Below, in pieces: positions 424 through 22,400 of a stretch of 23,185 nt of DNA. How positions within the stretch are numbered: the first letter of the stretch is position 1; every line of letters begins with the position of its first letter. Origin of the DNA: a virus. The stretch is from positions 1-23,185 of IMG/VR virus record IMGVR_UViG_3300047546_000447, one strand, 5' to 3'. The position numbers were made by a program, and so were the translations under genes. The notes below the pieces were generated by a model, which saw nothing but the letters and a program-made list of their open reading frames with translations, made no database searches and was not told where the DNA came from.

Positions 424-1932
424 ATGACAGGTATTTTCAATCAAAATATTAAAAATAAATTTATAGAAGAATTAATTACTGACGCAGCTAGTAATGATTC
501 TAACTATTACATTACGTTTGGCAAGTTTTTTGAATGGCCTGATGATAATAATCCTCCAATTCCTAACACGTCTATCAAAGAATCATATTATGATGTAAAC
601 CGTGAAATGCTATTTGGTAAGAGATTGGATGCTACTACAAATTTTGCTTACATCTTTAAAAAGAAAACCTGGACATCAGGTACAGTTTATGACTACTATT
701 CACATTTAGATAAAGATCTTTTTACAAAAGATTTCTATGTGGTTACAAGTAAGAATAGAGTTTATAAATGTCTGTTTAATAACTACGGTGCTCCTTCTAC
801 AGTTGAGCCTGACCTTACTGTTAATAACGGTGACTTTGATACTGCTGATGGTTATAAATGGAAATTTATGTTTACTATTAACAGTGTAAACAATACAAGA
901 TTTACAACAGACACATACGTACCAGTAGTTGAAAGTCAATCTGTTAGACAGTTTGCAGAACCAGGTGCACTACATGTTGCAATAGTAAATAATGGTGGTA
1001 ATAATTATACCTCATCTAACGGTTCGTTTGTTTCAATTTTAAGCAATAACGAATTTATTATTGCAAACAATACATCATTAAATATATCTGGTGCTTATAC
1101 TAATTCAGCTATTTACATTTATTCAGGTAACGGTGCTGGAAGTTATTCACTAATTACAAGTTATGTTGCTAACAGTTTTGGAAGATACATTACTACTGAT
1201 AAGAGCATTCCATTCTTAGATTCTACCTCACTATATTATATTGGACCATACGTAAGATTTAATGGTGATGGTATTAATGCAAAAGCAATCGCTCATGTTA
1301 ATGCAGCATCAAGTAAGATTACTTCTATAGAAATTATCGATAGAGGTTTAAACTACTCTTATGCCGACATTTCTATAGAATCAAATACTTATTTTGGTGG
1401 TAATGCTACTGCTTATGCAATTATTTCACCTCCTGGTGGACATGGTTCAGACCAGGCATCTGAATTAGGAAGCGATACGTTAGGTATATCAGTTAAAACT
1501 TCTGGTTTAGATAATTTCCCACAATGGGCAAAATATAGACAGGTTGCATTACTTTATAATCCTAAAGCATCAGCTAATCTTACACCGTTTCAAGAATCTA
1601 CTTTCAATCAGATGACAAACTTTGTTATCGCTACAGGAAGTAAAACTGGTGATATAAATGCTGGAGACTCTCTATTAGGATTAGGAAGATTAGGTACTGC
1701 TACAGCTCTTTATTCTAATGATACACATCTTTATATTAAAGATCAACTAGGCACATTTATACCTGGTGAAACTGTTCAATCTATCGATACAGGTAAAACT
1801 GCTGTAATTTCCTCTATAAATAATAAAGATTTAGTTTCTTTTACTGGCGAAATATTCTATTACAACAATATAGAGCCGATTAATAGAGATGGTATTGCAA
1901 CAGAAGAAGTAAAATTATATTTTAGATTTTAA
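424..1932 (+). CDS. 8: Baseplate wedge subunit, T4 gp8 family
   Basis: 502 residues. In T4, gp8 is a dimeric component of the baseplate wedge and bridges gp7, gp10 and gp6. Family signatures seen here are YYITFGKFFEWPDDNNPP near residues 28-45, SGTVYDYYSHLD near 85-95, FYVVTSKNRVYKCLFNN near 104-120, STVEP near 125-129 and DGYKWKFMFTI near 142-152. The end, from about residue 480 (FYYNNIEPINRD and then KLYFRF), also matches the gp8 C-terminus. It is longer than T4 gp8 (334 residues). The extra material lies roughly between residues 175 and 400 and includes a beta-rich repeat (SSKITSIEIIDRGLNYSYAD) and a GGHGSDQASEL motif, as I recall from longer marine gp8 homologues. The ATG follows the previous stop by 10 bases with no clear Shine-Dalgarno sequence, so translation may be coupled. 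Confidence 0.88.
   Translation: MTGIFNQNIKNKFIEELITDAASNDSNYYITFGKFFEWPDDNNPPIPNTSIKESYYDVNREMLFGKRLDATTNFAYIFKKKTWTSGTVYDYYSHLDKDLFTKDFYVVTSKNRVYKCLFNNYGAPSTVEPDLTVNNGDFDTADGYKWKFMFTINSVNNTRFTTDTYVPVVESQSVRQFAEPGALHVAIVNNGGNNYTSSNGSFVSILSNNEFIIANNTSLNISGAYTNSAIYIYSGNGAGSYSLITSYVANSFGRYITTDKSIPFLDSTSLYYIGPYVRFNGDGINAKAIAHVNAASSKITSIEIIDRGLNYSYADISIESNTYFGGNATAYAIISPPGGHGSDQASELGSDTLGISVKTSGLDNFPQWAKYRQVALLYNPKASANLTPFQESTFNQMTNFVIATGSKTGDINAGDSLLGLGRLGTATALYSNDTHLYIKDQLGTFIPGETVQSIDTGKTAVISSINNKDLVSFTGEIFYYNNIEPINRDGIATEEVKLYFRF
1815..1822 (+). promoter_or_regulatory. Possible T4-type late promoter box inside the 3' end of gp8
   Basis: An exact TATAAATA, the T4 late promoter -10 element recognised by the gp55 sigma factor, lies about 120 bp upstream of the DUF4815 gene. 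It sits within coding sequence (Ser-Ile-Asn-Asn) in AT-rich DNA, so a chance match is quite possible. Confidence 0.3.
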
Positions 1933-1941
1933 GGTAATTCT

Positions 1942-4900
1942 ATGGTTGAACTGCAAACTAATTTCAACGTATCTCCTTACTATGATGACTATAGTGAGGC
2001 TAAACAGTACTATCGTATTCTCTTTCGTCCAGCTACCGCTGTACAAGCAAGAGAATTAACACAATTACAAACTATTTTACAAAAGCAAATTTCTCGCTTT
2101 GGTAACAGTGTTTATAAAGATGGTACTATTATTGAAGGTTGCGGGTTTGTAAGATATCCTAATATAGATCAAATAAAATTTAAAGATAGTAATACATCTA
2201 CGTTGGATTTTGGTATTTTAACTGTAGGTAGTGAAGATCTTGCAAACACTGCTACTGCAAGAAGCAATAACTATCTTTTCGTTTCTAATACCACAGGTGT
2301 AAGAGCTGTTCTTTTCCAAGCTGTTTCTGGAGCAGAGTCAGTAGTTGATTTAGGAAGTCAAGATACTAATAGAGCATATGTAAGATATATCACTTCAGGT
2401 AATACTGGTGGTGTGCAGTATGATAAGTTTAGATCTAATGAACAAGTAGATGTTTATAGTTATCAACAAGATAAACTAGGTAATCTAAGTTCTACTTATA
2501 GACTAGGTTATATTCAGACTATCACTTCTAATAGCACTGTAAACGCTCTTGGTGTTGGATACGGTATTCATATTAACCCAGGTATTATCTACCAAAAAGG
2601 TTTCTTCTTAAATACAACAGAAGCTAACTTTATTATCAAAGAACATTCATCTAATGCTGCAGGTATTAAGGTAGGGTTTAATACTAAAGAATTTATTGTT
2701 AAGCCAGAAGAAGATGAATCACTCTATGATAATTCTATAGGAGCTCCTAACTTTAGTGCACCAGGTGCCCATAGATTAAAGTTAGTTCCAGAACCAATTT
2801 ATTACGATTCAGCAAATACACAGATTACAGTACCTGATAGTTTCTTACCAGTTTTGACTTTTGATAATGACAAGGGTCAAACAGTAGAAAATCTAGCTTT
2901 ACCAGAGTATAGTGATCAAATTACTAAACTACTTGCTGATAGAACTTTTGAAGAATCTGGTAATTATGTTTTTAAGCCTTTTAACATTGATGTGACTACT
3001 CACGATTCAAACACACAACAGATGTACTATACTATCTCATCTGGTGCTGCTTATATCGATGGATATAGAGTGCCTAGACAAGGTGGTAGTATGAATCGTA
3101 AAATGGCTGCTGATAGAGGCATTACTACAGAATCTGCTAATTCACAAGCAGTAACTTTTAACTATGGTAATTACTTTGCAGTAAGAAATTTCTCTGGTAT
3201 TATTGATATTGCTAATACTGTAGAAGCTACTATTTACAGTGCTAACCTAAATTCACTTTCTAATAATCAAAGTTATGCAGGTGCACCTACTTCAGGTGTA
3301 GCTATTGCTAACGTTAATATTAGAGCAGTAATGTATAATACAGGCTCAGGTAGTGGTAATCCTGGCACTCCTAATGCAGAATATAGAGTATACTTCTTTA
3401 ACTACCGTCCAAAAGCTGGTGTAGTATCAAATATGAGTGTTAATGCTAAGAGCATTTACATTGATGGTGTATACGGTAAGGTGTATGGCGATATAGTAGC
3501 TAACGGTCAAAATCAAATTACACCTCAAGATGTATACAATAAAAAATTAGTTTATTATACTGGGTATGATGGTGTAAAGAGATTAACTAATAATACCGGT
3601 GTAAATTCTACTACTTTCACTTACAGAACTACACAAACACAGGCTATAACAAGATCAGGCGGTCAAGGTATTGCAGCATTTACACTACCAGGACCAGACA
3701 AATATTACTACGGTACTGGAACTCTTTCAAGTGCAAACGAATTAATACCTACTGTATACTTTGCATCTAATACTTGGACAAATGAAATTGCACAGGGTGG
3801 AAGATTAATAGAAGGTGTTACTAGCTATTCAAATGCTACACATAGTAACGTAACATTCAGTAGTGCTGCTGTTTCTCTAGATACAAAACTTAGAGTAGGT
3901 TCTGGTGTATTCATTCAATATCCAGGTGGTTCTTCTTATAACACGGTTACTGCTGTTAATAGTGCTAACAGCATAACTGTTACACCTAATACACAGGCAA
4001 TTTCTCCTGCAGCTGGTGCAGTTGCTAATATTTCTCTATTCTATAAGAGAGGTACACCAGTTGACTTTACTGGTTCAGGTAATACTATTACAATTTCGGC
4101 TGACAGATTAACTGCAACAGTTACACTTTCTATAGATCCGAATACTGCAGCTACTTACTCACTTGCAGCTCAAATACCAATAACCAGAACACCTTCTAAT
4201 CCTATAGAAAAGTCAGTTAAAAAAGAAGTTTATGTTGCTATAAATTGCGCATCCCATTCAGCTGGTTCAGCAGGCCCATGGGGATTAGGTATACCTGACG
4301 TCTATAAAATCAATAAAGTATATGTTGGTTCTCTATGGAGTACAACTGCTGGTGGTGCACAAGATAGAACATCCTGGTTTACTCTTGATTCAGGACAGAG
4401 AGATAGTGCTTATCAACATGGTCAACTTTATGTTAAACCTGCGTTTAAAAGCTATCTAAGTTCATCTTCTAGATTGTTTGTAAGTCTTAACGCATTCCAA
4501 GCAAATATAACATCATCTAAAGCAGGCTTCTTCTCAAGAGACTCGTATAATATAGACGATGCTAATCCTACTACAAATGCTAATGCAATAGCTACTGCTG
4601 AAATTCCAATATACTACGGTGAAACTGGTGAAACTTACGATCTTAGAAACTGTATAGATCTAAGACCTGTGTTTGCAAATACTGCATTGATGAATCCAGG
4701 TAACAGTACTTTTGGTTACTTCACAGTTAATCCTGCTAACAACTTTAGTACAATTTATTATGGTAATCCAGCGGTAGGTGGTTTATCAATAGAACCTGAT
4801 TCACAATTTACATACAATGTAGAAAATTATCTTCCAAGAATCGATTCTATTATTATTACAAAAGACGATGTGGCGGTAGTAAAACAAGGTATACCATCTA

Positions 4901-4998
4901 ATAGTCCTAAACCACCTTCAATAAATAATTCAGGAATTAAGATTGCGGATATTGTTGTTCCACCTTATCCTTCACTAACATTTTCAGAAGCGGAATAA
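1942..4998 (+). CDS. DUF4815-type phage structural protein, N-terminal half
   Basis: 1018 residues. The N-terminus (ELQTNFNVSPYYDDY, then YYRILFRPATAVQAREL, LTQLQTILQKQISRFGN and VYKDGTIIEG, residues 3 to about 66) is the hallmark of the DUF4815 family, a large virion protein of marine T4-like and other tailed phages placed after gp8 and thought to be part of the baseplate periphery or fibre attachment. The middle is beta-rich and low-complexity, with many Ser, Thr, Asn and Gly residues. It ends with YLPRIDSIIITKDD and VVPPYPSLTFSEAE. In relatives I recall, these run straight on into the sequence of the next frame, so this is probably the first half of a usually single protein. An AAGGT ribosome site lies 6-7 bases before the ATG. 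The exact role is not established. Confidence 0.8.
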   Translation: MVELQTNFNVSPYYDDYSEAKQYYRILFRPATAVQARELTQLQTILQKQISRFGNSVYKDGTIIEGCGFVRYPNIDQIKFKDSNTSTLDFGILTVGSEDLANTATARSNNYLFVSNTTGVRAVLFQAVSGAESVVDLGSQDTNRAYVRYITSGNTGGVQYDKFRSNEQVDVYSYQQDKLGNLSSTYRLGYIQTITSNSTVNALGVGYGIHINPGIIYQKGFFLNTTEANFIIKEHSSNAAGIKVGFNTKEFIVKPEEDESLYDNSIGAPNFSAPGAHRLKLVPEPIYYDSANTQITVPDSFLPVLTFDNDKGQTVENLALPEYSDQITKLLADRTFEESGNYVFKPFNIDVTTHDSNTQQMYYTISSGAAYIDGYRVPRQGGSMNRKMAADRGITTESANSQAVTFNYGNYFAVRNFSGIIDIANTVEATIYSANLNSLSNNQSYAGAPTSGVAIANVNIRAVMYNTGSGSGNPGTPNAEYRVYFFNYRPKAGVVSNMSVNAKSIYIDGVYGKVYGDIVANGQNQITPQDVYNKKLVYYTGYDGVKRLTNNTGVNSTTFTYRTTQTQAITRSGGQGIAAFTLPGPDKYYYGTGTLSSANELIPTVYFASNTWTNEIAQGGRLIEGVTSYSNATHSNVTFSSAAVSLDTKLRVGSGVFIQYPGGSSYNTVTAVNSANSITVTPNTQAISPAAGAVANISLFYKRGTPVDFTGSGNTITISADRLTATVTLSIDPNTAATYSLAAQIPITRTPSNPIEKSVKKEVYVAINCASHSAGSAGPWGLGIPDVYKINKVYVGSLWSTTAGGAQDRTSWFTLDSGQRDSAYQHGQLYVKPAFKSYLSSSSRLFVSLNAFQANITSSKAGFFSRDSYNIDDANPTTNANAIATAEIPIYYGETGETYDLRNCIDLRPVFANTALMNPGNSTFGYFTVNPANNFSTIYYGNPAVGGLSIEPDSQFTYNVENYLPRIDSIIITKDDVAVVKQGIPSNSPKPPSINNSGIKIADIVVPPYPSLTFSEAE

Positions 4999-5004
4999 TA
5001 AATG
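4996..5004 (+). other. Tandem in-frame stop codons abutting a start codon (TAATAAATG)
   Basis: The upstream frame ends GAA-TAA-TAA and the downstream ATG follows immediately in the same frame, so the two long frames are separated only by two stop codons. The only ribosome site upstream is a weak purine stretch (AGAAGCGGA) about 10 bases before the ATG, which suggests termination-reinitiation. This is the boundary of the split DUF4815-type gene. Confidence 0.85.
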
Positions 5005-7989
5005 GGTTATAATAGAAAAGATTTAGCAGTAAAAGTAAATCTAGCTAAGAGCACTAAAGGGTACACTATGAAAGACATAGGTGCTCTTGAAGATAGAATT
5101 TCTAAGATTGAATACTATACTGTATTGAATGCTCTTGCTTTAGATGCAAAGACTCTTTCTATTAGAGACTCTACAGGTCAAATAGAACGTTTTAAAGATG
5201 GTATTTTTGCTGACCCTCTAAATGACGATTCTATTGCTAGATCAAATGATATTGAATTTAATCTTGCAGTTGATTCTTCTAAATCAATTGCACGCCCTAA
5301 TTTTGATGAATTGTATCATAAGTTTGACATAGAAACTAATAACAGCAGCAAAATTAAAATTGCTGGTAGATTGTTAATGTTAGATTTTGATAATGAAAAG
5401 GTTGTTTGCAACCCATACGCTACTACATATAGAAATTGCACAGAAAGCTTTTACACATTTAAAGGTAATCTAATTTTATTTCCTGAGTATGATAGCGGAA
5501 ATGATACTACATACTCTTCACCGCAAGTAATTACTATAGACTTAGCTAGTTCTTTTAATGAACTTCAAGCATTAGGTAAATTTAAAGATATTTCTACTAT
5601 TCAAGGTAACCCAGAAGAAATTGATAAAAGTAGAAGTTCTAGTACCAATAATGGTTTAAGAAAAACAACTACTACTACCACATATGCTACTAAGGTAGAT
5701 ACTACTGTATCAGATATTAAAGTACAAACTAATACTCTTAAACAAAATTTAGGTGAATTTGTTAAAGACGTTTCTTCTCTACCATATCTAAGAGCAAGAA
5801 CAGTAGCGGTATGGGCAACAGGATTAAGACCAAATTGTAGAGTTTATCCATGGTTTGATACTAAGAGTGTTAGCAGTTATTGCAGACCAGCTACGGTTAA
5901 AGCACAATATGCTACTAATGGTTACTTAGATCCTTCTAAAATAACATCTGTTGCTGCAGGTAATGAAGCAAATATTTTTGATTTTAACGGTGCTTTAGGT
6001 TCTCCATTAGTAACCGATAGTCTAGGTAATATTGCAGTATTATTCTATATACCTGCTAATACTTTTAGAAGCGGTGAAAGAACATTTTTATTAACTAATA
6101 TAGATGATCTTGCAGCTACTAGCGCAGTTATTACATCAGCTGAAGCTACCTACACAGGTAGTTCACTTTCAGTTTCAAAACAAAATCTTTCCTTCAATAT
6201 ATTAGAACCTACATTCACTCCTACTTCAGTTACAACAACTACTACAGTTATAACAAAAGAAACTAACACTAGCTATGCTGTTGTACCTCCACCACCAGAG
6301 CCGCGTGGTAATGACAGACCTAGTACTGATCCTGTAGGACAGACATTTAATATACCAAATACATCACAAGATGGTATTGGTGGTATTTACCTTTCACAGC
6401 TTGGTGTTCATTTTAAAAAGAAACATGGTACATTAGGTGTATGGTGTAAGGTTTGTGAAACTACAGCAGGTGTTCCTGATATTAGTAAAACTTTAGGTTC
6501 AACTTTCCTACTTTCATCACAAGTATCTGTTAGTGAAGATTCTAGTAGTGAAACTATATTTGAATTTAAAGAACCAATTCTTCTACAATCTGAAAAAACA
6601 TACTTCTTCTGGTTAGTTCCAGAAGGTAACAATCCTGATTATGAAATCTGGTTGTCAGAAGTAGGTGGTAAAGATAAAATTACCAATCTAAGTATTACTA
6701 AACAACCATTCTCTGGTATTGTATATGCATCATCTGATGGTACATCTTGGACACCATATCAATCTCAAGATCTTAAATTTAACATGTATAGAGCTAAGTT
6801 TAAGTATACTTCAGGTACTGCTGTGTTTAGAAATGCTAAAGAAGAGTATCTATCTTTAACTAACCTTTATAGAATTAATTCTGGTGTTCCTATTCAACCT
6901 GGTGATGTAGTTTATACTGCAAATGCTACTAATTTAACTCAATTTTTAACTGACAGTTCTCAATTTCCTAAAGCTACAGTTAAGACAGTTGATGAAGTTA
7001 CTGGTGTGTTTTTCTTAGAAGATTCTAACGGTCTATTTAACACCACTACACGTAAGAATTTAAGATTCTTTAGACCACCTAATACTGCAGTTACTAATAT
7101 AACAACAACATATTTAATTGCTAATGCTGAAATCTTAACTATAGATAATCCTACCTATCACGGTTTTGTTCCTAAATTTTCATTATTTGAACCTGCAGGT
7201 ACAGAGATTACACAGCGTTTCTTTGGCACATCTAACAGCGTATATTCTTTTGCTAAAGATGGTACTCCAGTAGAAACTGTTAATGAAAGACTTTTAGATT
7301 ATACAGATTATGAAAGAGTTATTAGAAGCTATTCTAATGAAGTTGCTGGAGGTTCATATGGAGCCAACGGAACTGCTACATTTGAAGTTAATCTGATTAC
7401 TAGCTCACAGTATCTCTCACCTGTTATTGACTTAGGTACAAGAACATTTAATTTTATTAAAAATAAAGTTAATAACGATGAAACAAATGAGCATACTAGA
7501 TATGGTAGTGCACAAACTAGATATATTTCAAAAATTGTAGCACTTAATAATGAATCTGAAGATATAAGAGTGTATGTAACTGGTTATCGTCCAGTAGGTA
7601 CAGATATATCAGTTTATGGTAAATTCTTAAATGATATTACTGATTCAGAGCCATTTGATAATAAGCAATGGACAAAACTAAGCTTTGATAATTCTAAAGG
7701 TATCAGCTTAGGTTCTACATACAGTGCACCTGCAAAGAATGAAGCAGATAAAGACTACAGAGAATATGTTTATGTTCTTCCTACTTCAAATGCTTATCCT
7801 CAGACAGCATTTGCAAATAATAATACTAATATTGCTTTTGATCCTTACGGTACAATTACTTACAGTGATTCTCTAGGTAATCAGCATCTTCGTTATACAA
7901 AGTTTGCTCTTAAAGTAGTTTTAACAACTAATAACCCAGTTGTTATTCCAACTATGCGTGATATTAGAGCAGTAGCATTGCAGATGTAA
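5002..7989 (+). CDS. DUF4815-type phage structural protein, C-terminal half
   Basis: 995 residues. The start (GYNRKDLAVKVNLAKSTKG, then YTMKDIGALEDRISKIEYYT at residues 21-40, then an ERFKDGIF element) corresponds to the middle of full-length DUF4815 proteins, where the segment YTMRDIG..E.RI.NLEYYT is internal. Downstream, residues of about 450-600 (GIGGIYLSQLGVHFKKKHG, then KTYFFWLVPEG) look like a carbohydrate-binding-type beta-sandwich. The end (TKFALKVVLTTNN, PTMRDIRAVALQM) matches the usual C-terminus of the family. A Thr-rich linker followed by a PPPPEP run lies near residues 410-435. The two halves together give about 2013 residues. No catalytic motif is seen. It probably assembles with the upstream half in the baseplate or tail tip; this is inference. 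Confidence 0.78.
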   Translation: MGYNRKDLAVKVNLAKSTKGYTMKDIGALEDRISKIEYYTVLNALALDAKTLSIRDSTGQIERFKDGIFADPLNDDSIARSNDIEFNLAVDSSKSIARPNFDELYHKFDIETNNSSKIKIAGRLLMLDFDNEKVVCNPYATTYRNCTESFYTFKGNLILFPEYDSGNDTTYSSPQVITIDLASSFNELQALGKFKDISTIQGNPEEIDKSRSSSTNNGLRKTTTTTTYATKVDTTVSDIKVQTNTLKQNLGEFVKDVSSLPYLRARTVAVWATGLRPNCRVYPWFDTKSVSSYCRPATVKAQYATNGYLDPSKITSVAAGNEANIFDFNGALGSPLVTDSLGNIAVLFYIPANTFRSGERTFLLTNIDDLAATSAVITSAEATYTGSSLSVSKQNLSFNILEPTFTPTSVTTTTTVITKETNTSYAVVPPPPEPRGNDRPSTDPVGQTFNIPNTSQDGIGGIYLSQLGVHFKKKHGTLGVWCKVCETTAGVPDISKTLGSTFLLSSQVSVSEDSSSETIFEFKEPILLQSEKTYFFWLVPEGNNPDYEIWLSEVGGKDKITNLSITKQPFSGIVYASSDGTSWTPYQSQDLKFNMYRAKFKYTSGTAVFRNAKEEYLSLTNLYRINSGVPIQPGDVVYTANATNLTQFLTDSSQFPKATVKTVDEVTGVFFLEDSNGLFNTTTRKNLRFFRPPNTAVTNITTTYLIANAEILTIDNPTYHGFVPKFSLFEPAGTEITQRFFGTSNSVYSFAKDGTPVETVNERLLDYTDYERVIRSYSNEVAGGSYGANGTATFEVNLITSSQYLSPVIDLGTRTFNFIKNKVNNDETNEHTRYGSAQTRYISKIVALNNESEDIRVYVTGYRPVGTDISVYGKFLNDITDSEPFDNKQWTKLSFDNSKGISLGSTYSAPAKNEADKDYREYVYVLPTSNAYPQTAFANNNTNIAFDPYGTITYSDSLGNQHLRYTKFALKVVLTTNNPVVIPTMRDIRAVALQM

Positions 7990-8218: not shown

Positions 8219-9700
8219 ATGACAGTTTTAGTATCAAACGTTAATACCACTACAGATTCTTTTGGCCAGTGGATAACTAAAACAAATATACTAGCTACTG
8301 CTATGTCAAATAGTGTAGTAACTGTTAACTCTAACACTTCTGTTGGAAGTGCTGCCATTACTGGTGATTTTACTTCAAATAATTTAATTACAAGTAACAG
8401 TGGTTCAGTATTCTTAGGAACTGATACATCTAATTCTTATATTAACGCTACGTCTCTAGTAATAAGAACTACCAGCTCTACTAATGCAGTACTAACATCT
8501 GCTGGCCTAGTATTGAGCGGTGTTGCTTCTTATACTTTAACATCTATGACAATAGGTGATTCAACTGTAACAGGTTCTAATGTACATACAAAAGATGTTT
8601 TTGTATCTAATAGTGTTACAATAACTGACGGTAATACACTCATTGATAAAGACTACATTTATACTGATCAGTCAAATGCATTAATGTCTTGGACAACAAA
8701 TACTCATGTTGTCGGTGATAATCAGGCTAATGTCTTTATAACTAGAAATGGTTTAGAAGTATATGATAACCCATCAGGCACTTTAGTACAGAATTCTAAA
8801 CTTACATCTACCACATTATATGTAAAGAACATTTACACTGACTTTTTAAGCGTAAGTGGACAAAGTACTAATACTGATTTTAACGGTAATGTCGCTTTCT
8901 ATGGTGCAAATAATTATTTTGATCTAGGCATCTGGGTAAAAGGTCCTGCTAAATTTACTGACAATACAGTAGTATTCTATTCAAACACAGATTTTGAAGG
9001 TGCTAATAACTATTTCTTAAACGGTCTCTATTCTGCAAATGTCATTTATACAGACGGTATAATTAATGCTCGTGCAGGTGCTAACAGTGTTGGCTTTATA
9101 AAAATAGTAGATCAAACTAATCCAAGTAGATATCAAATACTAAAAGCAAATAGCGGTGTATCTACTCTACAATTAACTTTACCAGCAGCAGATGGTGCTA
9201 ATGAAGATTATCTCAGTACTGATGGTAATGGTAATTTAAAATTCTTATCTCTCAACGGTAACACTTCTGTTAACTTCTCTACTAGAACACTTAAAGTAGG
9301 TTCTGGTGTTGCAGCTGGAACACCATCAGATGGTCAGATCTGGGCACAAGATAACGTTATTGCTTATAAGACATCAGATCAAAGATTAAAAGAAAATGTA
9401 GCTGTTATTACTGATGCACTATCTAAAGTTCAAGCTATCAACGGTGTAACGTTTGATTGGACTGACGATTATATTGCTGAACAAGGTGGTGAGGATGGTT
9501 ACTTTGTTCGCAAGCATGATGCTGGTGTAATTGCACAAGAAATTGAAAGTGTATTACCTGAAGCTGTAGGAACTAAAGTAACTGGTTATAAAGCAGTACA
9601 ATACGAAAAAATAGTACCTCTTTTAATTGAAGCAATTAAAGAACTTAAAGCTGAAATTGAAAGATTAAAGAACCCATATAAGGTCAACGAATGGCAATAA
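8219..9700 (+). CDS. Tail fibre protein with C-terminal peptidase_S74 intramolecular chaperone domain
   Basis: 493 residues. About the first 370 are beta-rich and Ser/Thr/Asn-rich with repeated elements (NVAFYGANNYF and NTDFEGANNYF near residues 223-262), as expected for a trimeric beta-helical fibre shaft. The C-terminus from Ser386 (SDQRLKENV, then ALSKVQAINGVTFDW, AGVIAQEIESVLPEAV, YEKIVPLLIEAIKELKAEIE) is a clear peptidase_S74 domain, the chaperone that trimerises fibres and endosialidases and then cuts itself off at the conserved serine. The terminal helix is the expected coiled-coil end. The ATG abuts the preceding stop and an AGAAAG purine run lies just upstream. It probably forms a host-recognition fibre; the ligand is unknown. 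Confidence 0.88.
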   Translation: MTVLVSNVNTTTDSFGQWITKTNILATAMSNSVVTVNSNTSVGSAAITGDFTSNNLITSNSGSVFLGTDTSNSYINATSLVIRTTSSTNAVLTSAGLVLSGVASYTLTSMTIGDSTVTGSNVHTKDVFVSNSVTITDGNTLIDKDYIYTDQSNALMSWTTNTHVVGDNQANVFITRNGLEVYDNPSGTLVQNSKLTSTTLYVKNIYTDFLSVSGQSTNTDFNGNVAFYGANNYFDLGIWVKGPAKFTDNTVVFYSNTDFEGANNYFLNGLYSANVIYTDGIINARAGANSVGFIKIVDQTNPSRYQILKANSGVSTLQLTLPAADGANEDYLSTDGNGNLKFLSLNGNTSVNFSTRTLKVGSGVAAGTPSDGQIWAQDNVIAYKTSDQRLKENVAVITDALSKVQAINGVTFDWTDDYIAEQGGEDGYFVRKHDAGVIAQEIESVLPEAVGTKVTGYKAVQYEKIVPLLIEAIKELKAEIERLKNPYKVNEWQ

Positions 9701-10017: not shown

Positions 10018-10220
10018 TGCGTGATAGCACTATAGTAATAAGAAAATCCGGTGATTCACTTATTACAGTAGCAAGATCAGCTCCTGTAGAATCAACTATA
10101 ATAGTTAAATTAAAAGGTTATATTATAGAGACTGTTTCTGTTCTTAAAAATCAGGAAACAGATCTCCTAGGTACATCACCTACCACTCCTAGAGTAGCAC
10201 CTCCAGTAAATAATTACTGA
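10017..10220 (+). CDS. Small hypothetical protein
   Basis: 67 residues, starting inside the stop codon of the preceding gene (TAATG), which is typical of translational coupling and is the main argument that it is real. The predicted protein has alternating hydrophobic residues (STIVIRKSGDSLITVAR, then ESTIIVKLKGYIIETV), suggesting a small beta structure, followed by a Pro/Thr-rich tail (SPTTPRVAPPVNNY). It resembles no family I recognise. It ends with TGA, whereas its neighbours end with TAA, and overlaps the oppositely oriented glycosyltransferase gene by 7 bases at the stop codons. Confidence 0.6.
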   Translation: MRDSTIVIRKSGDSLITVARSAPVESTIIVKLKGYIIETVSVLKNQETDLLGTSPTTPRVAPPVNNY

Positions 10221-12952
10221 ACTCTAAACACATAAGATCCAGTATGGTCGCAGATAATAGATGTATCTGCATATAATTTAAATCCTTTTTGAGATGCCAT
10301 TTTAGCAAAGTATAGATCTTCTGAGAAAGTATCGTTATGGTTAATTGCAGATTTATATACAAACTGCGGGTAGCCAATCTCAGCAAACACTTCTCTCTTT
10401 ACTAATACACATCCAAACCCACATGCACCAATCTCTACTAAACCTTTACCTTTAATTTTATTCCATTCAATATGGGTATAACCACCTCTCTCATTACCTT
10501 CAAAAATCTCTAGTGTTTGTCTATCAGGTATCCTCTGTCTATAAATTCCTGTGACAACATCTTTATCATGAGAAAGAAGTTTCTTAAGAGTATCGGGTGC
10601 AAAAGAAATATCATAATCTACTGAGAAAAGATAATCATAGGGTGTCTTAGTAACCCAATCGGCAATTAGATTGCGAACCTGATCTACATTATATCCATAA
10701 AAATATTGAAAGTCAACATCATACCCTTCTGGTATTTCTAGATCGTAGATAGATTTAAATGTTGATGGTTCAATGTTTTTTGCTGTTGGTATACCAATCA
10801 ATATTCTTTTTTTCATAACATTTCTCACTACTGTCTCTTTTGCTTTAACTAATGGAACTGGTATAGGAACCTCTGATATCTTTGTTTTATTACCTGCAAT
10901 TTTACTAGCATTTTGATTTTGCAATTCACCATTTACTTTATAATCGTTAATTGGATTTTTATCATTATAAACGTAAAATATTTCTTGAACTGCAACTACT
11001 TTGTTAGGATCAGCTTGTTCTAGAATATTGTAGAATGTTGCATTATCACCACCTGCTTTATACCAATTGCCTTTATCATCTGTAAACACACTATCAGGTA
11101 CATTATTAAGAAGCTTGCGTTTCCATACTCTCAAATGTAGATATGGCATTCCCCAATTAAATTTATGATCACGATAAGCCTTTGCTTCTCTTACTGCTTT
11201 AGGATATGGTTGAGCAATAAGAGGGATATCGTCTGCTTCTGACCAGCAAGAACCGTATGCATAATCTGTTTTGTTATCTGCAAATAGATTATTATAATAA
11301 TTAAAAATGTTAGGATTATTAAACAGTGCATCATCCCCATCCAATAACATAACAATAGTATCATCACCTTCTACGAACTGTTTAATAGTAGATATCTGAT
11401 TAAACGGTGCACCGTAATTTTCTTTATTATAAATTTTTACTATTTTAGATTTAATATCGTTAGGTAATGAATTAACATAGTTTTCAATAACTTCTACTGA
11501 GTTATCTGTGCTGCAATCGTCAATTAAATACATTGCCCAACTATCATAGTCCTGAGCAACTACTGATTCTATACAGCGCTTAATATAGTCTTTTGCATTA
11601 TAGAGAGGTGTTATAACTGCAATCGGTTGTTCTTCTGATCTCTTATAGCTTGACCATTCTACCTGATTACTAAAACGTCTACCGTAAACTCTATGAACTT
11701 TATTGTTAATATAAGTTACTTTACGGTATTCATCAACTGGCATATAAAGACCAAACATCTTTAAGAAGAATTGCTTCCATTGTAATGCAACTGTATCCCA
11801 TGTATGTATATCTTTAATAATATTGCAGTAGTATTGTTTTTGTTGATGTAAGTATGGATCTTTGTATGCTCTGATAACCTTCTCAACAAATTTTTCTACC
11901 TGTTGATCAATATTAATTTCTTGAAACAAACTATTAGGTTCAATTGCATAATCAATAAAGTATGATGCAAGATCAATTGCAGTTTCTTCTAATGCACCAA
12001 ATCGTGTTGCAACCAATGGTGTATTATAGGTAAGTGATTCTAGAGTAGAGATACCAAATGTTTCTGGGAATGCTCCAGGAAATAGAAACATATAAGCTTT
12101 AGAAAGTAATTCAGCTATTTCTTTTTGAGTAATAATACCCGTAAACTCAATATCAAGATCTTTATATTTTTGTTCTTTAACAAGCTTCATAAGAGTTTCA
12201 CCTTGAGCATCCAAAGGTGAATCATCTCTAAATTTATAGTAACCACCAACAATTTTTAATTTTGCCTGAGGAATATATTGTTTAATTCTTGGCCAGATTC
12301 TATCAATAAGTGGTAGCATACCCTTTGTTACTGATGCATTATAAACAAAAAGATCTCTATCTTTTTTAGAGATATCAACTTCATCAATATATTGAACAAC
12401 TGCATTTCTAGTTTGAAATACTTTATTCTTTAACACCTCAAAATTACGTCTTTTACCGTGATGGCAGTTTGTAACATAAGCGGTATGGAAATCAGAAAGA
12501 GTAAAAATATTATCAATATAACCATTCACAATGAGATCTTCTAAATTAAGATCTCCGTTTGCAAAAGTATCATGCATCCACATGATTTTAAGCTTTGCAT
12601 TATCTCTAATTGTTTTAAAAAGTGATGGATGATGTCTGGTTGCATTACTGTATGCATCATAGTAGTGATCAGGTACAAAAGGCACTACTGTTCTTGATGA
12701 TATAACAACGTCAAACTTATCGTTTTGATTGAGGCTGGTTATAGGCCTATAAGTTACACCATCATAAATACCTGGTATGCTATCATCTTCTTGACAAGCA
12801 TTGAATACTGTGACGTTGAACCCTAATTTTGCAAGTTCTTTAGAGATAAGGATTACCGCTGATTCAGAACCGCCAAGTCCTCTTTTTGATAGCGTAGTGC
12901 CATCATAGACAAGACCAATCAAATCAAGAAAAGCAATAGTTGGGTATTTCAT
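10214..12952 (-). CDS. Three-domain glycosyltransferase (GT4-like, GT2-like and a second GT-A-like domain)
   Basis: 912 residues from the ATG at 12952, chosen because GAGGT lies four bases upstream and the protein then opens with a normal GT-B strand (MKYPTIAFLD); the in-frame ATG at 12982 would add ten residues. Residues 1 to about 400 are a GT-B/GT4 domain, with KRGLGGSESA (24-33), YNASVTKG and the EX7E signature in PETFGISTLESL (E297, E305). Residues about 443-690 are a GT2 GT-A domain (PIAVITPLYNAKDYIKRCIE, LIDDCSTDNS, LLDGDD at 536-541). Residues about 715-905 are another GT-A-like domain (SVDYDIS with DYD at 779-781, ACGFGCVLVKREVF, SEDLYFA, CDHTG). It is expected to move sugars from nucleotide-sugar donors in the cytoplasm. 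The acceptor is unknown; virion fibre protein, host surface glycan or modified DNA are options. It is the only gene on this strand and sits inside the fibre cluster. Confidence 0.9.
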   Translation of the reverse strand: MKYPTIAFLDLIGLVYDGTTLSKRGLGGSESAVILISKELAKLGFNVTVFNACQEDDSIPGIYDGVTYRPITSLNQNDKFDVVISSRTVVPFVPDHYYDAYSNATRHHPSLFKTIRDNAKLKIMWMHDTFANGDLNLEDLIVNGYIDNIFTLSDFHTAYVTNCHHGKRRNFEVLKNKVFQTRNAVVQYIDEVDISKKDRDLFVYNASVTKGMLPLIDRIWPRIKQYIPQAKLKIVGGYYKFRDDSPLDAQGETLMKLVKEQKYKDLDIEFTGIITQKEIAELLSKAYMFLFPGAFPETFGISTLESLTYNTPLVATRFGALEETAIDLASYFIDYAIEPNSLFQEINIDQQVEKFVEKVIRAYKDPYLHQQKQYYCNIIKDIHTWDTVALQWKQFFLKMFGLYMPVDEYRKVTYINNKVHRVYGRRFSNQVEWSSYKRSEEQPIAVITPLYNAKDYIKRCIESVVAQDYDSWAMYLIDDCSTDNSVEVIENYVNSLPNDIKSKIVKIYNKENYGAPFNQISTIKQFVEGDDTIVMLLDGDDALFNNPNIFNYYNNLFADNKTDYAYGSCWSEADDIPLIAQPYPKAVREAKAYRDHKFNWGMPYLHLRVWKRKLLNNVPDSVFTDDKGNWYKAGGDNATFYNILEQADPNKVVAVQEIFYVYNDKNPINDYKVNGELQNQNASKIAGNKTKISEVPIPVPLVKAKETVVRNVMKKRILIGIPTAKNIEPSTFKSIYDLEIPEGYDVDFQYFYGYNVDQVRNLIADWVTKTPYDYLFSVDYDISFAPDTLKKLLSHDKDVVTGIYRQRIPDRQTLEIFEGNERGGYTHIEWNKIKGKGLVEIGACGFGCVLVKREVFAEIGYPQFVYKSAINHNDTFSEDLYFAKMASQKGFKLYADTSIICDHTGSYVFRVQ

Positions 12953-12956
12953 AATA

Positions 12957-12961
12957 ACCTC
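12957..12961 (-). promoter_or_regulatory. Ribosome binding site of the glycosyltransferase gene
   Basis: On the minus strand GAGGT ends four bases before the ATG at 12952. It decides the start in favour of this ATG over the in-frame ATG 30 bases upstream, which has no comparable site. Confidence 0.65.
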
Positions 12962-12970
12962 ATAACAAAA

Positions 12971-12978
12971 CATAAATA
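12971..12978 (+). promoter_or_regulatory. Candidate T4-type late promoter for the first collagen-like fibre gene
   Basis: CATAAATA differs by one base from the late consensus TATAAATA and lies 30 bp before the fibre start codon in the divergent gap, giving a predicted leader of about 20 bases that includes the AGGT ribosome site at 12999-13002. Placement is good; the match is not perfect. Confidence 0.5.
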
Positions 12979-12991
12979 TCAAGGATACTTT

Positions 12992-13007: not shown

Positions 13008-16000
13008 ATGGCACTTACTTTTTACAGTCAGACACTGTCTGCTAACGGTACTGCTAATAATTTTATATTAGATCGCGCAGTAAATCAAGCAAATAGTATA
13101 TTAGTTTCGATAAATGGTCTGGTTCAAGTGCCAGATGTGGATTATACTGTTAATTCCACTAATCTTAATCTTGTCATTACTCCTTATGCTAGTTCTGATA
13201 TTGAAGTTAGATATATTGAACTAGACAATGAAACTGGTTATCAAGGTTCTGCTGGTTTCCAAGGTTCAGCAGGTTCGACAGGTTATATAGGTTCTACTGG
13301 TTTCACAGGTTCTATTGGTTCAGCTGGTTATCAAGGTTCAGCAGGTGCACCTGGTGGATCACAAGGTTATGCAGGTAGTATAGGTTTCACAGGTTCTATC
13401 GGCTATTCTGGTTCTACTGGTGGTATAGGTAAGCCATCTAGAAATAGTGTATATACTGGTAATGGTAGTAACACTCAATTCACTCTTTCTGAAACTCCCG
13501 ACTCACCTATTCAAATATTAGTTATAGTCAACGGTCTTACTTTAATACCTACAAATGACTATACAGTTTCTGGTACTACACTTTCATTAGCAAATGCACC
13601 TGAAGTAGGTTCAGATATTGAAGTTAGATACTTTGATATTGCACAAGGTACAGTTGGTTTCCAAGGTTCAGCAGGCTTTCAAGGATCAGCTGGTTATAGA
13701 GGTTCTGAAGGTTATCAAGGCTCAGTAGGTTTTCAAGGTTCAGTAGGTGCTACTGGTTTACAGGGACCGTCTGGTGGGCAAGACGGCTATACAGGTTCAC
13801 AAGGTGACTTAGGCTATACTGGATCAATAGGTTTTACTGGATCAATAGGTGGTGCAGGCTTCCCATATAAAACTTCTAGATTTATAAGCAACGGAAGTAA
13901 CACTCAATATACCTTATCCGACTACACATCTAATGCATCACATATATTTGTGTTTGTTAATGGTATATTAGAAACACCGGAAGTAGATTACACCACATCT
14001 GCTTACACTTTAAATCTTTCATCTGCACCTCCTCTTAATGCAGAGATTGAAGTAAGATATTTTGGTATAGTATTAGCTCCTACTGGTTACGTTGGTTCTA
14101 CTGGTGATCAGGGTCCTTTAGGTTATCAAGGTTCTAGAGGTGCAACCGGTTATGAAGGCTCAATGGGCTATACCGGCTCTAAAGGTGATTTAGGTTATAC
14201 TGGTTCAATAGGTTATACTGGATCAAAAGGTGATACTGGTAACTTTGGTGGTGCATCGTTTAGTTATCATTATCTTACTGATACTGCAAATACTGATCCT
14301 GGTAATGGTAATTTTAAATTTAATAATACATCTTTCTCATCTATTACTACAATGTATATTAATGAGAATGATGAATTTTTTGATTCTGCATATGCATTTC
14401 TACAAACAATAGATGACTCGACATCAGCAATTAAAGGTCAGTTTACTATAACTGATGTTGCTAATACTGATATTTCTTCTATCTTTAATATTGTCGGTTA
14501 TCATAGCTTTACACCTAACTTCTTTACAGTACCAGTATCTTATGTTTCTGGTTCTAATAGTTTTACCAATAATGCAAATATTAATATCACTTTTGCAAGA
14601 ACTGGTGATAGAGGTGACACTGGTTTTACAGGATCAAAAGGTGATACCGGGTATGCTGGCTCAGTAGGATTTACTGGTTCAATCGGATACACTGGTTCAA
14701 TTGGATACACTGGTTCAATCGGTTATACCGGCTCAATAGGATTTACAGGATCTGTTGGTTTTACTGGCTCTGTTGGTTATACTGGTTCAATTGGCTTTAC
14801 TGGTTCTATTGGTTTTACTGGCTCAGTAGGGTTTACTGGTTCAATAGGTTTTACCGGCTCTAAGGGTGATATAGGGTTTACTGGTTCCATAGGATTTACT
14901 GGATCAAAAGGTGACACAGGGTTTGTAGGATCTAAAGGTGATACTGGATTTGTAGGATCTATAGGCTTTACCGGCTCTAAAGGCGATACAGGATTTGTAG
15001 GATCTAAAGGTGATATTGGGTTTGCTGGTTCAAGAGGTGATACTGGGTTTATAGGTTCGTTTGGTTTTACTGGATCACAGGGTAACCTAGGTCCATTAGG
15101 TTATACTGGTTCTATAGGCTATACTGGTTCAGAAGGTTATGCTGGTTCTATTGGTTTTACCGGTTCTATAGGTTTTACTGGATCGAAAGGTGATACTGGT
15201 TACGTTGGATCTAACGGTTATGATGGTTCACAAGGTAGTATTGGTTATACAGGTTCAACAGGTGCTGGTTATGATGGATCACAGGGTGATACAGGGTATG
15301 TTGGATCACAAGGTGATATAGGTTATACCGGGTCCCAAGGTATTGAAGGTTATACAGGATCATACGGTGATCTAGGTTATACCGGTTCAATAGGTTACAC
15401 AGGATCAAAAGGTGATACTGGTTATGATGGTTCACGTGGTGATATTGGCTACTCCGGATCATTAGGTTATACAGGTTCTATTGGTTATGTTGGATCGACT
15501 GGTGCAGGTTATGTTGGATCTAAAGGTGACCCTGGTAGCTTTGGTGGTACCAGTATGGTGTACCAATATGTTGCTAATACCGAGCTTGCAGATGTAGGAA
15601 CTTCTACTTTTAGATTCTCTAATACAGATCTTCAAGTAGCTGGCAATTTGTATATCTCTCATGTTGACGTTCTTGCAACATATCATTTAGCTACATTCCA
15701 GTTTGTTAACACATCTACATCTGGTATTAAAGGTTATATACAGTTAAAAGAAGGTGCTAACCTACAGAACTTTATTCTGTATGCTATAGTAAATCCTATA
15801 TCTGCAATTGGTAATACTAGTGTAATACCTGTAGGGTATCTTTCAGGTCCCGCTAACACCTTTGCAAATTCTACAATTACACAAATTGTTATTGCCAGAC
15901 AAGGTGATATAGGTGATACAGGTTATTCTGGTTCAACTGGTTCAACTGGTGGTGCAGGTTATACTGGTTCTGCTGGGTTTACCGGTTCTGTAGGTTATGA

Positions 16001-16994
16001 TGGTTCTTTAGGCTATACTGGATCTAAAGGTGATATAGGGTATACAGGTTCTCAAGGTGATATAGGATATACTGGTTCATTTGGTTATACTGGATCACAA
16101 GGTGACACTGGTTACGTTGGATCTCAAGGTTTTACTGGTGATACAGGCTTCACTGGTTCTATTGGTGATCTAGGTTATACTGGATCGTTAGGTTATTCTG
16201 GATCTATAGGTTATACTGGATCGATTGGCTACACAGGTTCTATTGGTGATCTTGGTTACTCAGGTTCTATTGGTTTCACTGGTTCTACTGGTGCAGGCTT
16301 TGTAGGATCTCAGGGTGATGTAGGTTACGTCGGTTCAAGAGGTAATATAGGTTTAACCGGTTTTACTGGATCAGGTGGTACACAAGGGTTCACTGGTTCA
16401 GTTGGTAATTTAGGTTTCACAGGTTCTAGAGGTGCTGGGTTTACTGGATCACAAGGTGGTTTTGGTGGTGCAGCATTTGAGTTTGTTTACTCAACTAATA
16501 CAGTTCATACTGAAACTACTAACGGATATTTCTCGTTTAGTAATACAGATTTAAGTTTAGCTAACACTCTTTATATTGATTATATCGATATTCTAGGAAC
16601 AAATACTTACAACTTCTTAGCTACTATTGATGATAGTACAAGTGGTATAAAAGGTCACTTCTCAGTAAGAGATAAGTTTGATAGTCAAAGATATTCACTA
16701 TTTGCTATCATGGGATCCCATACCACTCATAGCGATCATTTTGATGTACCAGTTTCCTGGTTAAGCGGTAATACAAGTTTAACTAATCTCTCTAATGTTA
16801 TTATTACTTTTGCAAGAACTGGTGATATTGGTGCAACTGGTTATACAGGATCTAAAGGTGATACAGCACTTGCAAATACAGTAGCACCGGTTAGTTCATT
16901 AACTGGTACTTTATGGATTGATACAGAAACAGGAATACTGAGTGTAAACATTGGAGATGAAAGCAATACAGTATGGATAGCGGTGTCATTTTAA
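13008..16994 (+). CDS. Large collagen-like tail fibre protein with A and B domain modules
   Basis: 1328 residues. Order: A1 (1-73), Gly-X-Y (77-143), A2 (145-213), Gly-X-Y (216-285), A3 (287-355), Gly-X-Y (359-413), B1 (414-532), a Gly-X-Y tract of about 104 triplets (533-845), B2 (846-965), Gly-X-Y (966-1152), B3 (1153-1271), a short Gly-X-Y stretch and a C-terminal cap (about 1290-1328; GTLWIDTETGILSV, TVWIAV). A modules carry ...VNGL..P..DYTV and EVRY motifs, common in phage fibres. The Gly-X-Y tracts are mostly GYT/GFT followed by GSI, GSK or GSQ and contain almost no proline. Such tracts form trimeric rods in phage and bacterial collagen-like proteins. It probably forms a long jointed host-contacting fibre. 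AGGT lies five bases before the ATG. Confidence 0.87.
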   Translation: MALTFYSQTLSANGTANNFILDRAVNQANSILVSINGLVQVPDVDYTVNSTNLNLVITPYASSDIEVRYIELDNETGYQGSAGFQGSAGSTGYIGSTGFTGSIGSAGYQGSAGAPGGSQGYAGSIGFTGSIGYSGSTGGIGKPSRNSVYTGNGSNTQFTLSETPDSPIQILVIVNGLTLIPTNDYTVSGTTLSLANAPEVGSDIEVRYFDIAQGTVGFQGSAGFQGSAGYRGSEGYQGSVGFQGSVGATGLQGPSGGQDGYTGSQGDLGYTGSIGFTGSIGGAGFPYKTSRFISNGSNTQYTLSDYTSNASHIFVFVNGILETPEVDYTTSAYTLNLSSAPPLNAEIEVRYFGIVLAPTGYVGSTGDQGPLGYQGSRGATGYEGSMGYTGSKGDLGYTGSIGYTGSKGDTGNFGGASFSYHYLTDTANTDPGNGNFKFNNTSFSSITTMYINENDEFFDSAYAFLQTIDDSTSAIKGQFTITDVANTDISSIFNIVGYHSFTPNFFTVPVSYVSGSNSFTNNANINITFARTGDRGDTGFTGSKGDTGYAGSVGFTGSIGYTGSIGYTGSIGYTGSIGFTGSVGFTGSVGYTGSIGFTGSIGFTGSVGFTGSIGFTGSKGDIGFTGSIGFTGSKGDTGFVGSKGDTGFVGSIGFTGSKGDTGFVGSKGDIGFAGSRGDTGFIGSFGFTGSQGNLGPLGYTGSIGYTGSEGYAGSIGFTGSIGFTGSKGDTGYVGSNGYDGSQGSIGYTGSTGAGYDGSQGDTGYVGSQGDIGYTGSQGIEGYTGSYGDLGYTGSIGYTGSKGDTGYDGSRGDIGYSGSLGYTGSIGYVGSTGAGYVGSKGDPGSFGGTSMVYQYVANTELADVGTSTFRFSNTDLQVAGNLYISHVDVLATYHLATFQFVNTSTSGIKGYIQLKEGANLQNFILYAIVNPISAIGNTSVIPVGYLSGPANTFANSTITQIVIARQGDIGDTGYSGSTGSTGGAGYTGSAGFTGSVGYDGSLGYTGSKGDIGYTGSQGDIGYTGSFGYTGSQGDTGYVGSQGFTGDTGFTGSIGDLGYTGSLGYSGSIGYTGSIGYTGSIGDLGYSGSIGFTGSTGAGFVGSQGDVGYVGSRGNIGLTGFTGSGGTQGFTGSVGNLGFTGSRGAGFTGSQGGFGGAAFEFVYSTNTVHTETTNGYFSFSNTDLSLANTLYIDYIDILGTNTYNFLATIDDSTSGIKGHFSVRDKFDSQRYSLFAIMGSHTTHSDHFDVPVSWLSGNTSLTNLSNVIITFARTGDIGATGYTGSKGDTALANTVAPVSSLTGTLWIDTETGILSVNIGDESNTVWIAVSF
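14247..14603 (+). repeat. B module copy 1 (fibre interruption domain)
   Basis: This encodes residues 414-532 of the first collagen-like fibre. It begins GGASFSYHY, contains FLQTIDDSTSAIKG and VPVSYVSGSNSF, and ends TFARTGD. It is closest to copy 5, with which it shares DPGNG, FLQTIDDSTS and SGSN elements. Confidence 0.85.
14604..15542 (+). repeat. Longest collagen-like Gly-X-Y tract
   Basis: About 104 Gly-X-Y triplets with a strong 18-bp, six-residue super-repeat (G-Y/F-T-G-S-x). Adjacent 18-bp units at 14685-14702 and 14703-14720 differ at one base, and a 22-bp stretch at 14922-14943 recurs exactly at 14994-15015, four units downstream. Elsewhere synonymous codons are mixed, so most units differ at the DNA level. 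Confidence 0.85.
15543..15902 (+). repeat. B module copy 2 (divergent)
   Basis: Residues 846-965 of the first collagen-like fibre. It begins GGTSMVYQY and ends VIARQGD. It keeps the layout (FRFSNTDL, TSTSGIKGYIQL, VPVGYLSG-like region) but has lost the IDDSTS core (VNTSTS) and the TFART ending, making it the most divergent copy. Confidence 0.75.
15903..16463 (+). repeat. Collagen-like Gly-X-Y tract between B2 and B3
   Basis: About 62 Gly-X-Y triplets, residues 966-1152, dominated by GYTGSx, GDIG and GDTG units, with short irregularities such as GSTGAG and GSGGTQG. Confidence 0.8.
16464..16820 (+). repeat. B module copy 3
   Basis: Residues 1153-1271 of the first collagen-like fibre. It begins GGAAFEFVYSTNT, contains NTLYIDYIDILG and IDDSTSGIKGHFSV, and ends TFARTGD. 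It is closest to copy 4 in the other collagen-like gene (shared YSTNT, LYIDYID, KGHFS and DHF). Confidence 0.85.
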
Positions 16995-19484: not shown

Positions 19485-22400
19485 ATGGCAAATAATCTTA
19501 TCCAGATTAAGCGTACAGCTGTATCTGGGCGTGCAGCAAATACAACAACTCTCCCAAATCCTGGCGAATTAGCCCTTAATATGACCGACGGAATCTTGTA
19601 TTCCGGTAACGGTTCTGTTGTGTTTGAAATCGGTGCAAACACTACTAATTCAAGAGTTTCTGGTAATCTTACTGTCAAATCTATTATTGCAAATAATTCA
19701 GTAGGTACTGCTGGACAAGTTTTATCTTCTAATGGTACTGCTGTATATTGGTCTACTACAGTTGGATATACAGGCTCGGTTGGTTATACAGGTTCAATAG
19801 GTGGTACTGGGTTTACAGGTTCTATTGGCTATGCTGGTTCTAAAGGTGATACTGGATTTGTAGGATCACAAGGCAGTACAGGCTTTACCGGATCTAAAGG
19901 AGATCTTGGTTATACAGGTAGTATTGGTCCTAGTGCAGGTTCTAATAATCAAATACTCTATAAAAATTCATCTAACACGCTTACCGGTAGCGACGGTTTA
20001 AGATATGATGGTGTAAGTATTAAGGTTAATGGTAATCTTGAATCAGTTTACAGTAATGGTGATGAAGGTGGTGAGATTTATCTCGAAAAACCTGTTACTA
20101 ATTCGACACTTGCAGCTGGTGTCACTATCGATGTCTATCAAAATAAATTAAGAATATTTGAAAATGCTGGTACTAATCGTGGTGCGTATATTGATCTTAC
20201 TGCTGCATCTACCGGTGTAGGATCTAATCTTCTTGCTGCAAGTACAGCAGGTTATACTGGTTCTAAAGGTGATCTAGGCTATACAGGATCAATAGGATTT
20301 ACAGGCTCATTTGGATATACTGGATCAAAAGGTGATGTAGGTTATACCGGATCTAAAGGTGATATAGGCTATACTGGATCTTCTGGTTACACTGGCTCTA
20401 AAGGTGATTTAGGTTATACAGGCTCACAGGGACCAGCTGGTACGTTTGGTGGAGCTGCCTTTAACTACAATTATAGCACTAACACTACACATACTTCCAC
20501 ACCTGACGGTTATTTAAACTTTAGTAATACAAATTTAAGTCAAGCTAATGCACTCTATATTGATTATATTGATGCATTAGGAGCTAATGCTTTTTCTTTC
20601 TTACAAACTATAGATGATTCTACATCAGCTATTAAAGGTCATTTCTCTATTAAAGAAGCAGCAAACAGCCTCAACTATGCAATGTTTGCTATTACCGGTT
20701 TACATATTCAAGAAACCGATCATTTTAATGTACCAATATCTTATTTAAACGGTGTTACATCGTTTACTAATGGTACTAATACTGTTATAACATTTGCTAG
20801 AACTGGGGATATCGGTGATACAGGTTATACTGGATCTATTGGTAGTGCAGGTTATGTTGGATCTTTTGGATATACCGGCTCTAAAGGTGATTTAGGTTAT
20901 ACTGGATCTATTGGTAGCACTGGTTATGTTGGTTCACAAGGTATACAAGGTACTACCGGGTACACAGGTTCGCAAGGTACAACAGGTTTTACAGGTTCAA
21001 AAGGTGATATTGGTTACACTGGTTCAATAGGATATTCTGGATCTCTAGGTTATACAGGTTCTGTTGGTATAGGTTATGATGGATCACAGGGTAGTTTAGG
21101 TTATACAGGGTCTGTTGGTTTTACTGGTTCTACTGGCGTATCAGCTAACGTAAATATTAATTCCTATACGTTTACTGGTAATGGTAGTAACACGGTTTAT
21201 ACTTTAGCCAATCAAGTTACCCAGAATACAGTATTAATAAGCATTAACGGTATAGTACAAGCTCCTGTAACTTCATATACCATTACCGATGCAAATACTA
21301 ATATTAACTTTGTCGATGCACCAGGCGCTAACTCTTTTATTGAGGTAAAAGTAGTTTCAGGTGGTATTGGTTATACTGGTTCACAAGGACCTGCAGGCGG
21401 GTATACCGGTTCACAAGGTACTACTGGTTATGCTGGTTCACTTGGTTATACTGGTTCAATCGGATTTACCGGTTCTACAGGTGCTGGTTATGTAGGATCA
21501 CAAGGTAATTTAGGTTATGCAGGATCAAAAGGTGATTTAGGATACACAGGTAGTGTAGGATCAACCGGATTTACCGGCTCTACTGGTTATGCAGGTTCAT
21601 TTGGTTATACTGGATCAAAAGGAGATGCTGGTTATACAGGTTCTCTAGGATTTACCGGTTCAGTAGGTTTTGTTGGTTCTAAAGGTGATCTCGGCTATAC
21701 TGGTTCACAAGGTCCTCAAGGTACATTCGGTGGTGCAGCATTTGATTATACATTTAATGCTAACACTGACAACTCTGATCCTGGTAATGGTGGATTAAAA
21801 TTTAGTAATACAAATGCATCACAAGCTAACACTTTATACATTAGTGAGAATGCAGATAACTTCCAATCAGTATATAACTTTTTACAGACAATTGATGATT
21901 CAACTTCATCAATTAAAGGTCACTTTACAGTAACAGAAAAAGCAAATACTGATCATTTTGCTTTATTTGCTATTACTGGTTATCATACACACTATACTAA
22001 TTATTTCGGTGTACCTACTTCGTTTATATCTGGATCAAATACATTTAGTAATGCTCTTGATATTATCATTACATTTGCAAGAACGGGTGATATCGGTGAC
22101 ACAGGTTACACTGGTTCACAAGGTAGTCTGGGCTACACTGGTTCTATTGGTTATTCAGGGTCTGCTGGGTATACAGGTTCTATAGGTTCTGTTGGCTATA
22201 CTGGCTCTACTGGTTCACAAGGAACTACAGGCTATACTGGATCAAAAGGTGATATCGGGTATACTGGATCAAAAGGTGATATCGGCTATACAGGTTCTGT
22301 AGGTTTTACTGGCTCAGTTGGTTCACAAGGTGCTACTGGTTATACCGGCTCTTTAGGTTATACAGGATCACAAGGTGTTGGTTACACAGGTTCTGTAGGT

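Follow-up and report, generated by a model that had tools for sequence, protein, structure and literature searches.

The window, i.e. the complete stretch of 23,185 nucleotides of viral DNA analyzed here, contains two adjacent genes that together correspond to the single DUF4815/VrlC baseplate gene of related phages. We are highly confident that this arrangement represents an old and stably kept gene fission, accompanied by a probable coupled restart of translation and by a putative joint packing of the two products.

Organization of the split gene

An ATG at position 1942 opens a frame of 1018 residues on the plus strand, which ends with a TAA at 4996-4998. It is directly followed by a second TAA (4999-5001) and by the ATG at 5002. 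The frame that starts there has the same phase, comprises 995 residues, and is closed by a TAA whose last base is 7989. These coordinates (1942-4998 and 5002-7989) confirm the preliminary description of the locus, which had reported two long same-phase frames separated by TAA-TAA and ATG. Chance does not account for two abutting frames of about 1000 codons that match one 2000-residue family in register. The relevant features are as follows:

424..1932, plus strand: upstream neighbor, baseplate wedge gene (gp8-like; phrog_438, 249 bits; conserved order)
1942..4998, plus strand: first gene, N-terminal half of the DUF4815/VrlC baseplate protein, 1018 aa (PF16075, phrog_358, HMM 1-950)
4996..5001, plus strand: two consecutive TAA codons, comprising the first gene's stop and the window's version of a variable spacer (-1 to +5 nt and three phases in the relatives)
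5002..7989, plus strand: second gene, C-terminal half, 995 aa, with its own ATG (phrog_358 from 955, HMM 953-1903)
6286..6333, plus strand: proline-rich linker PPPPEPRGNDRPSTDP within the second gene, equivalent to site C (alignment with relatives)
8219..9700, plus strand: downstream neighbor, tail-fibre-like gene with a Peptidase_S74 chaperone (PF13884, 55.4 bits)

Against PF16075 (DUF4815), which has a cut-off of 30 bits, the first half scores 131.8 bits; the second half alone matches the later part of this profile with 22.2 bits, i.e. below the threshold. Both halves are matched in register by phrog_358, the first at positions 4-944 (458.9 bits) and the second from position 955 onwards (463.7 bits). 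An HMM of 1904 columns, which was built from five intact proteins and run on the stop-to-stop frames of all fetched loci, is covered by the window halves from 1 to 950 and from 953 to 1903. The profiles thus place the protein in the VrlC-type DUF4815/phrog_358 family, and its location after the gp8-like wedge gene corresponds to the gene order in L001, a relative of the window, and in phage records. Judged by the gene families, the region probably represents the baseplate cluster of a T4-like myovirus. The window furthermore harbors two long fibre-like proteins (13008-16994 and 19485-22757), which largely consist of collagen-like repeats of the GYTGSIGFTGS type, and a gene of about 920-940 residues on the opposite strand inside the tail cluster (10214-12982, minus strand) that looks glycosyltransferase-like by eye. 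The latter has a counterpart at the corresponding place of L001 (14485-17322, minus strand).

Rhizobium phage RHph_I1_18 (QIG70811.1), Pelagibacter phage HTVC008M, and Ochrobactrum phage vB_OspM_OC have full-length homologues at the same place after gp8, but they possess one DUF4815 gene whereas the window has two. The single protein of RHph_I1_18 comprises 1922 aa and shows 34% and 36% identity to the first and second window half, respectively; its two BLAST segments abut at the split point of the window. The alignment at the join is equally tight for the intact relative L027 (VPPYPSLTVKEAETYSRKDLSMRISVKTTKRYTMKDI), which corresponds to VPPYPSLTFSEAE, the two stops, and MGYNRKDLAVKVNLAKSTKGYTMKDI in the window. 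Accordingly, SLTVKEAE-TYSRKDL of L027 faces SLTFSEAE, the two stops, and MGYNRKDL. The match of both flanks to a continuous stretch of single-chain relatives, which the preliminary description had proposed, was right, since the residues of the join are contiguous with those of the intact proteins. Its assumption that little or no protein is absent at this position is borne out as well: both halves are collinear with the full-length DUF4815 proteins, and L027 aligns straight across the join with nothing missing.

The homologues of Listeria phage A511 (Gp106) and of Deep-Blue and Vp4 are labelled as tail fibre or VrlC. The VrlC-type protein Gp106 forms the pyramids of the two-layered baseplate, which reorient upon host contact (PMC11406892), and VrlC is counted among the components of two-layered baseplates (PMC7029224).

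Distribution and phylogeny of the cut

The relatives were gathered by scans with alignment queries; searches with single sequences performed poorly and retrieved none or one locus from viral_contigs and none from genome_contigs. The same split was sought in related contigs and found in 26 of the 166 informative sequence clusters, the other 140 being unbroken at this position (site A). Identity to the window amounts to about 70-73% for the nearest relatives L099, L100, and L112 and to only 45-50% for many of the 26 clusters. The flanks of the cut follow the pattern YPSLTF.EA[EQ] before and M.Y.R.D.[AS]V after the break in nearly all clusters; L174 is the sole case with degenerate flanks and has a 16-nt spacer. 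The spacer of the site-A splits ranges from a one-base overlap (TAATG) to five bases, it occurs in all three phases and with TAA, TAG, or TGA as the stop, and its only conserved elements are the stop and the ATG that opens every second half. L001, for example, which is 45% identical, is cut at the same residue with the sequence GAA TAA T ATG and hence in a different phase. The in-frame TAA-TAA of the window is only its own form of this variable spacer. The close relatives were also checked for extra sequence between two separate genes, an outcome that the preliminary description had considered contrary to a fission. They contain two genes with no additional protein sequence in between, and a single gene is present in the next more distant lineages.

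In a tree with 98 rows, the split rows known by then form one group that requires one change and is nested among unsplit rows (SH-aLRT 97). The split clade is supported by 100/100 in a tree of 28 split and 10 near unsplit rows, and the same clade is recovered with 100/100 from the second half alone (columns 953-1340). Pairwise identities of the two halves within the clade are correlated with r = 0.83, a value that partly reflects shared ancestry and compares with 0.75 for two parts of the first half. This agreement of half trees and distances indicates that the halves were inherited together, and no exchange of halves between viruses was seen. The dN/dS ratio of the window and L100 is about 0.14 for the first and 0.23 for the second half, with dS near saturation; for the three pieces of the less diverged pair L168-L183 it amounts to about 0.20, 0.26, and 0.13. 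Both halves are under purifying selection, and neither of them is decaying. A true fission, one of the options raised in the preliminary description, is supported in three respects: the unsplit homologue is continuous with nothing lost at a contiguous join, the break in the 26 clusters is derived and shared by descent within one clade, and selection maintains both parts.

The alternatives have to account for the same distribution. Programmed stop-codon readthrough or frameshifting, adding some full-length chain, would be in line with the shared phase of the halves in the window and in a few relatives (L099, L103, L104, and L181), but the window has two consecutive TAA codons, and in most relatives the second gene lies in phase 1 or 2 (e.g. 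L001, L019, L102, L105, L106, L107, L108, and L115), so that readthrough is unable to join the halves there. A common phase together with a stop context conserved across the relatives was not found; the stop and the spacer vary, an ATG always opens the second half, and the RNA structure at the join does not exceed that of shuffled sequences (z -0.5). The readthrough option of the preliminary description thus fails, and an additional full-length product is highly improbable. We agree with its view that recoding is unlikely, because TAA is found at 12 of the 12 window gene ends checked and therefore represents a real stop rather than a sense codon elsewhere in the genome. Apart from the unusual look of the tandem stops, nothing speaks for an assembly error or for a recent mutation that destroyed the frame or created a nonsense codon. 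A recent nonsense change had also been considered beforehand, but the cut is common to 26 clusters and to independent contigs at 45-73% identity, with purifying selection on either side, which leaves this explanation a negligible probability. Taken together, the relatives, the phases, and the TAA usage rule out a general explanation by readthrough, recoding, a nonsense change, or an assembly error.

An unrooted tree by itself gives no direction, and the two genes might hence be ancestral and the single-chain relatives fusions. This polarity is very unlikely given the nested position of the split clade among unsplit lineages, the 140 of 166 informative clusters that are unbroken at site A, and the single chain of the far relative phi812; many fusions would be far costlier than one fission. 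The presence of Hint domains at another site of the DUF4815 protein brings to mind a rejoining of the halves after translation, e.g. by a split intein. However, none of the split rows contains a Hint sequence at site A, and the gene ends are ordinary protein sequence that is continuous with the intact relatives, which makes a post-translational rejoining extremely improbable.

Probable coupled translation and joint packing of the two chains

The first gene is preceded by a Shine-Dalgarno-like AAGG in nearly all members, and for the second gene only a GAAGC.GA-like stretch is present in the last codons of the first one; in the window this weak Shine-Dalgarno-like motif is GAAGCGGA. The median duplex energies are -5.3 kcal/mol for the first and -1.9 kcal/mol for the second gene (p ~1e-10; internal ATGs 0.1), on the assumption that the host possesses the usual 16S tail. 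Promoter-like sites between the halves occur at chance level, no terminator was found between them, and no Rfam match was obtained within the window. The tight spacer and the weak Shine-Dalgarno motif suggest that the second gene is translated by termination-reinitiation, i.e. in a coupled manner.

The structural context of the cut was assessed with an AlphaFold2 model of one relative, the intact L027, with a mean pLDDT of 71.6 (552 residues, 41 sequences). In this model the junction follows residue 352, where the prediction is confident (block means 89 and 86). A short helix (348-353) and the loop behind it are located here, flanked by strands at 333-340 and 362-365, and a long helix (373-401) comes next. 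The best PDB match of the model in Foldseek is the baseplate of Staphylococcus phage phi812 (9eui, E 5.5e-7), and a profile search retrieved the same molecule with an E-value of 2.7e-18. The DUF4815 protein of phi812 (ORF65, PDB 9euf/9eui) has detectable homology to both halves, but it is a single chain of about 1150 residues, and its loop at the position of the window's cut is shorter by about 11 residues. According to the model, the cut is placed at a loop of already variable length inside the conserved DUF4815 region and not between independent domains. Because the break lies inside this conserved region, the two chains very probably pack together in the baseplate.

The evidence supports a scenario in which the ancestral virus of one clade of uncultured myoviruses had a single gene of about 1950-2000 residues, and a loop of this protein came to be interrupted by a handful of bases that supply a stop and a start codon. 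The outcome is two adjacent genes whose products together represent the original chain. Ribosomes that finish the first gene would mainly restart at the ATG a few bases further on, presumably yielding roughly equal amounts of both products. Packed together in the baseplate, the two chains would replace the one chain of the relatives, as indicated by the homology, the uninterrupted core on both sides of the cut, and the matching histories of the halves.

Further breaks and Hint domains

The same baseplate protein is fissioned into adjacent pieces in Caulobacter phage Cr30 (two genes) and Stenotrophomonas phage DLP_6 (two ‘VlrC’ genes), but these cuts are located elsewhere (hmm ~1125-1225 and 1312-1372) and belong to tree lineages separate from that of the window. 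In the accessible parts of the literature on DUF4815, VrlC, and gene fission in phage tails, no account of the site-A split was found.

Breaks at site B (hmm ~1085-1260) are present in 16 clusters with at least five changes on the tree, and those at site C (hmm ~1290-1420) in 30 clusters with at least six changes; a few of these breaks are likely frame errors, as in L010, L021, and L112, and the raw site-C counts are accordingly slightly overestimated. A subclade of nine rows within the clade of the window (100/100) is cut at A and C, resulting in three genes. The second piece of several site-B loci restarts at hmm ~571, which was read as a repeated motif and not as an extra split. An apparent frame break in the second half of L001 (7380-7420), beside an AAA run and with pieces overlapping at hmm 1083, is possibly a sequencing error rather than the border of a third gene.

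In many lineages, site C harbors a Hint domain, which is either in frame or terminates the upstream piece; the window exhibits neither a Hint domain nor a split there, only the proline-rich linker. These Hint/intein-like domains recur at hmm ~1345-1373 (L001, L019, L050, L052, L086, L115, L126, L162, L168, L181, L183, L185, L188, L197, and others). A splicing intein would end with HN-C/S/T, but most of these domains end with HNK, which points to self-cleavage instead of splicing. In L050 (8273-13357), L083 (9599-13585), and L168 (13017-14840), the upstream piece stops exactly at the C-terminus of the Hint domain (AHNK or VHNK), and the next gene starts with the sequence that follows there in unsplit relatives. 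L233 (1140-7193, residues 1426-2015) has four Hint-like domains inserted head to tail at the hmm ~1345-1373 site; the first three end with HNK immediately before the next CF.(K/A)GT start, and the last one is interrupted close to the end of the contig, where the frame changes. The site-C fragments of L230 (5102-6940) are separated by about 1.8 kb with three unrelated small genes. The upstream fragment terminates in a Hint-like start that lacks the usual final HN, and L232 has a similar gap of 1.8 kb. Three adjacent small ORFs of L127 (16399-18558), each Hint-like (CFLDG.KVLM), are located outside the baseplate protein.

The cut at site A arose once, early in the clade of the window, and two further regions were broken repeatedly, one of them also carrying Hint domains. 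A recurrent pressure to divide the baseplate protein, at a small number of set positions, into two or three chains, with fission or Hint self-cleavage being adaptive instead of the result of neutral drift, is a tentative and rather unlikely reading of this pattern; if true, cutting would allow separate movement or assembly of individual parts of the baseplate arm.

What seems to be a defect is thus documented as an old fission affecting a conserved baseplate protein of phages. In annotation and structural work, the DUF4815 baseplate protein is to be expected as one, two, or three genes, and the cut sites mark positions at which a break is compatible with the fold. The two- and three-gene forms of the clade, in which one linker may or may not bear Hint domains, represent a natural series for studying the connection between gene splitting and self-cleaving domains.
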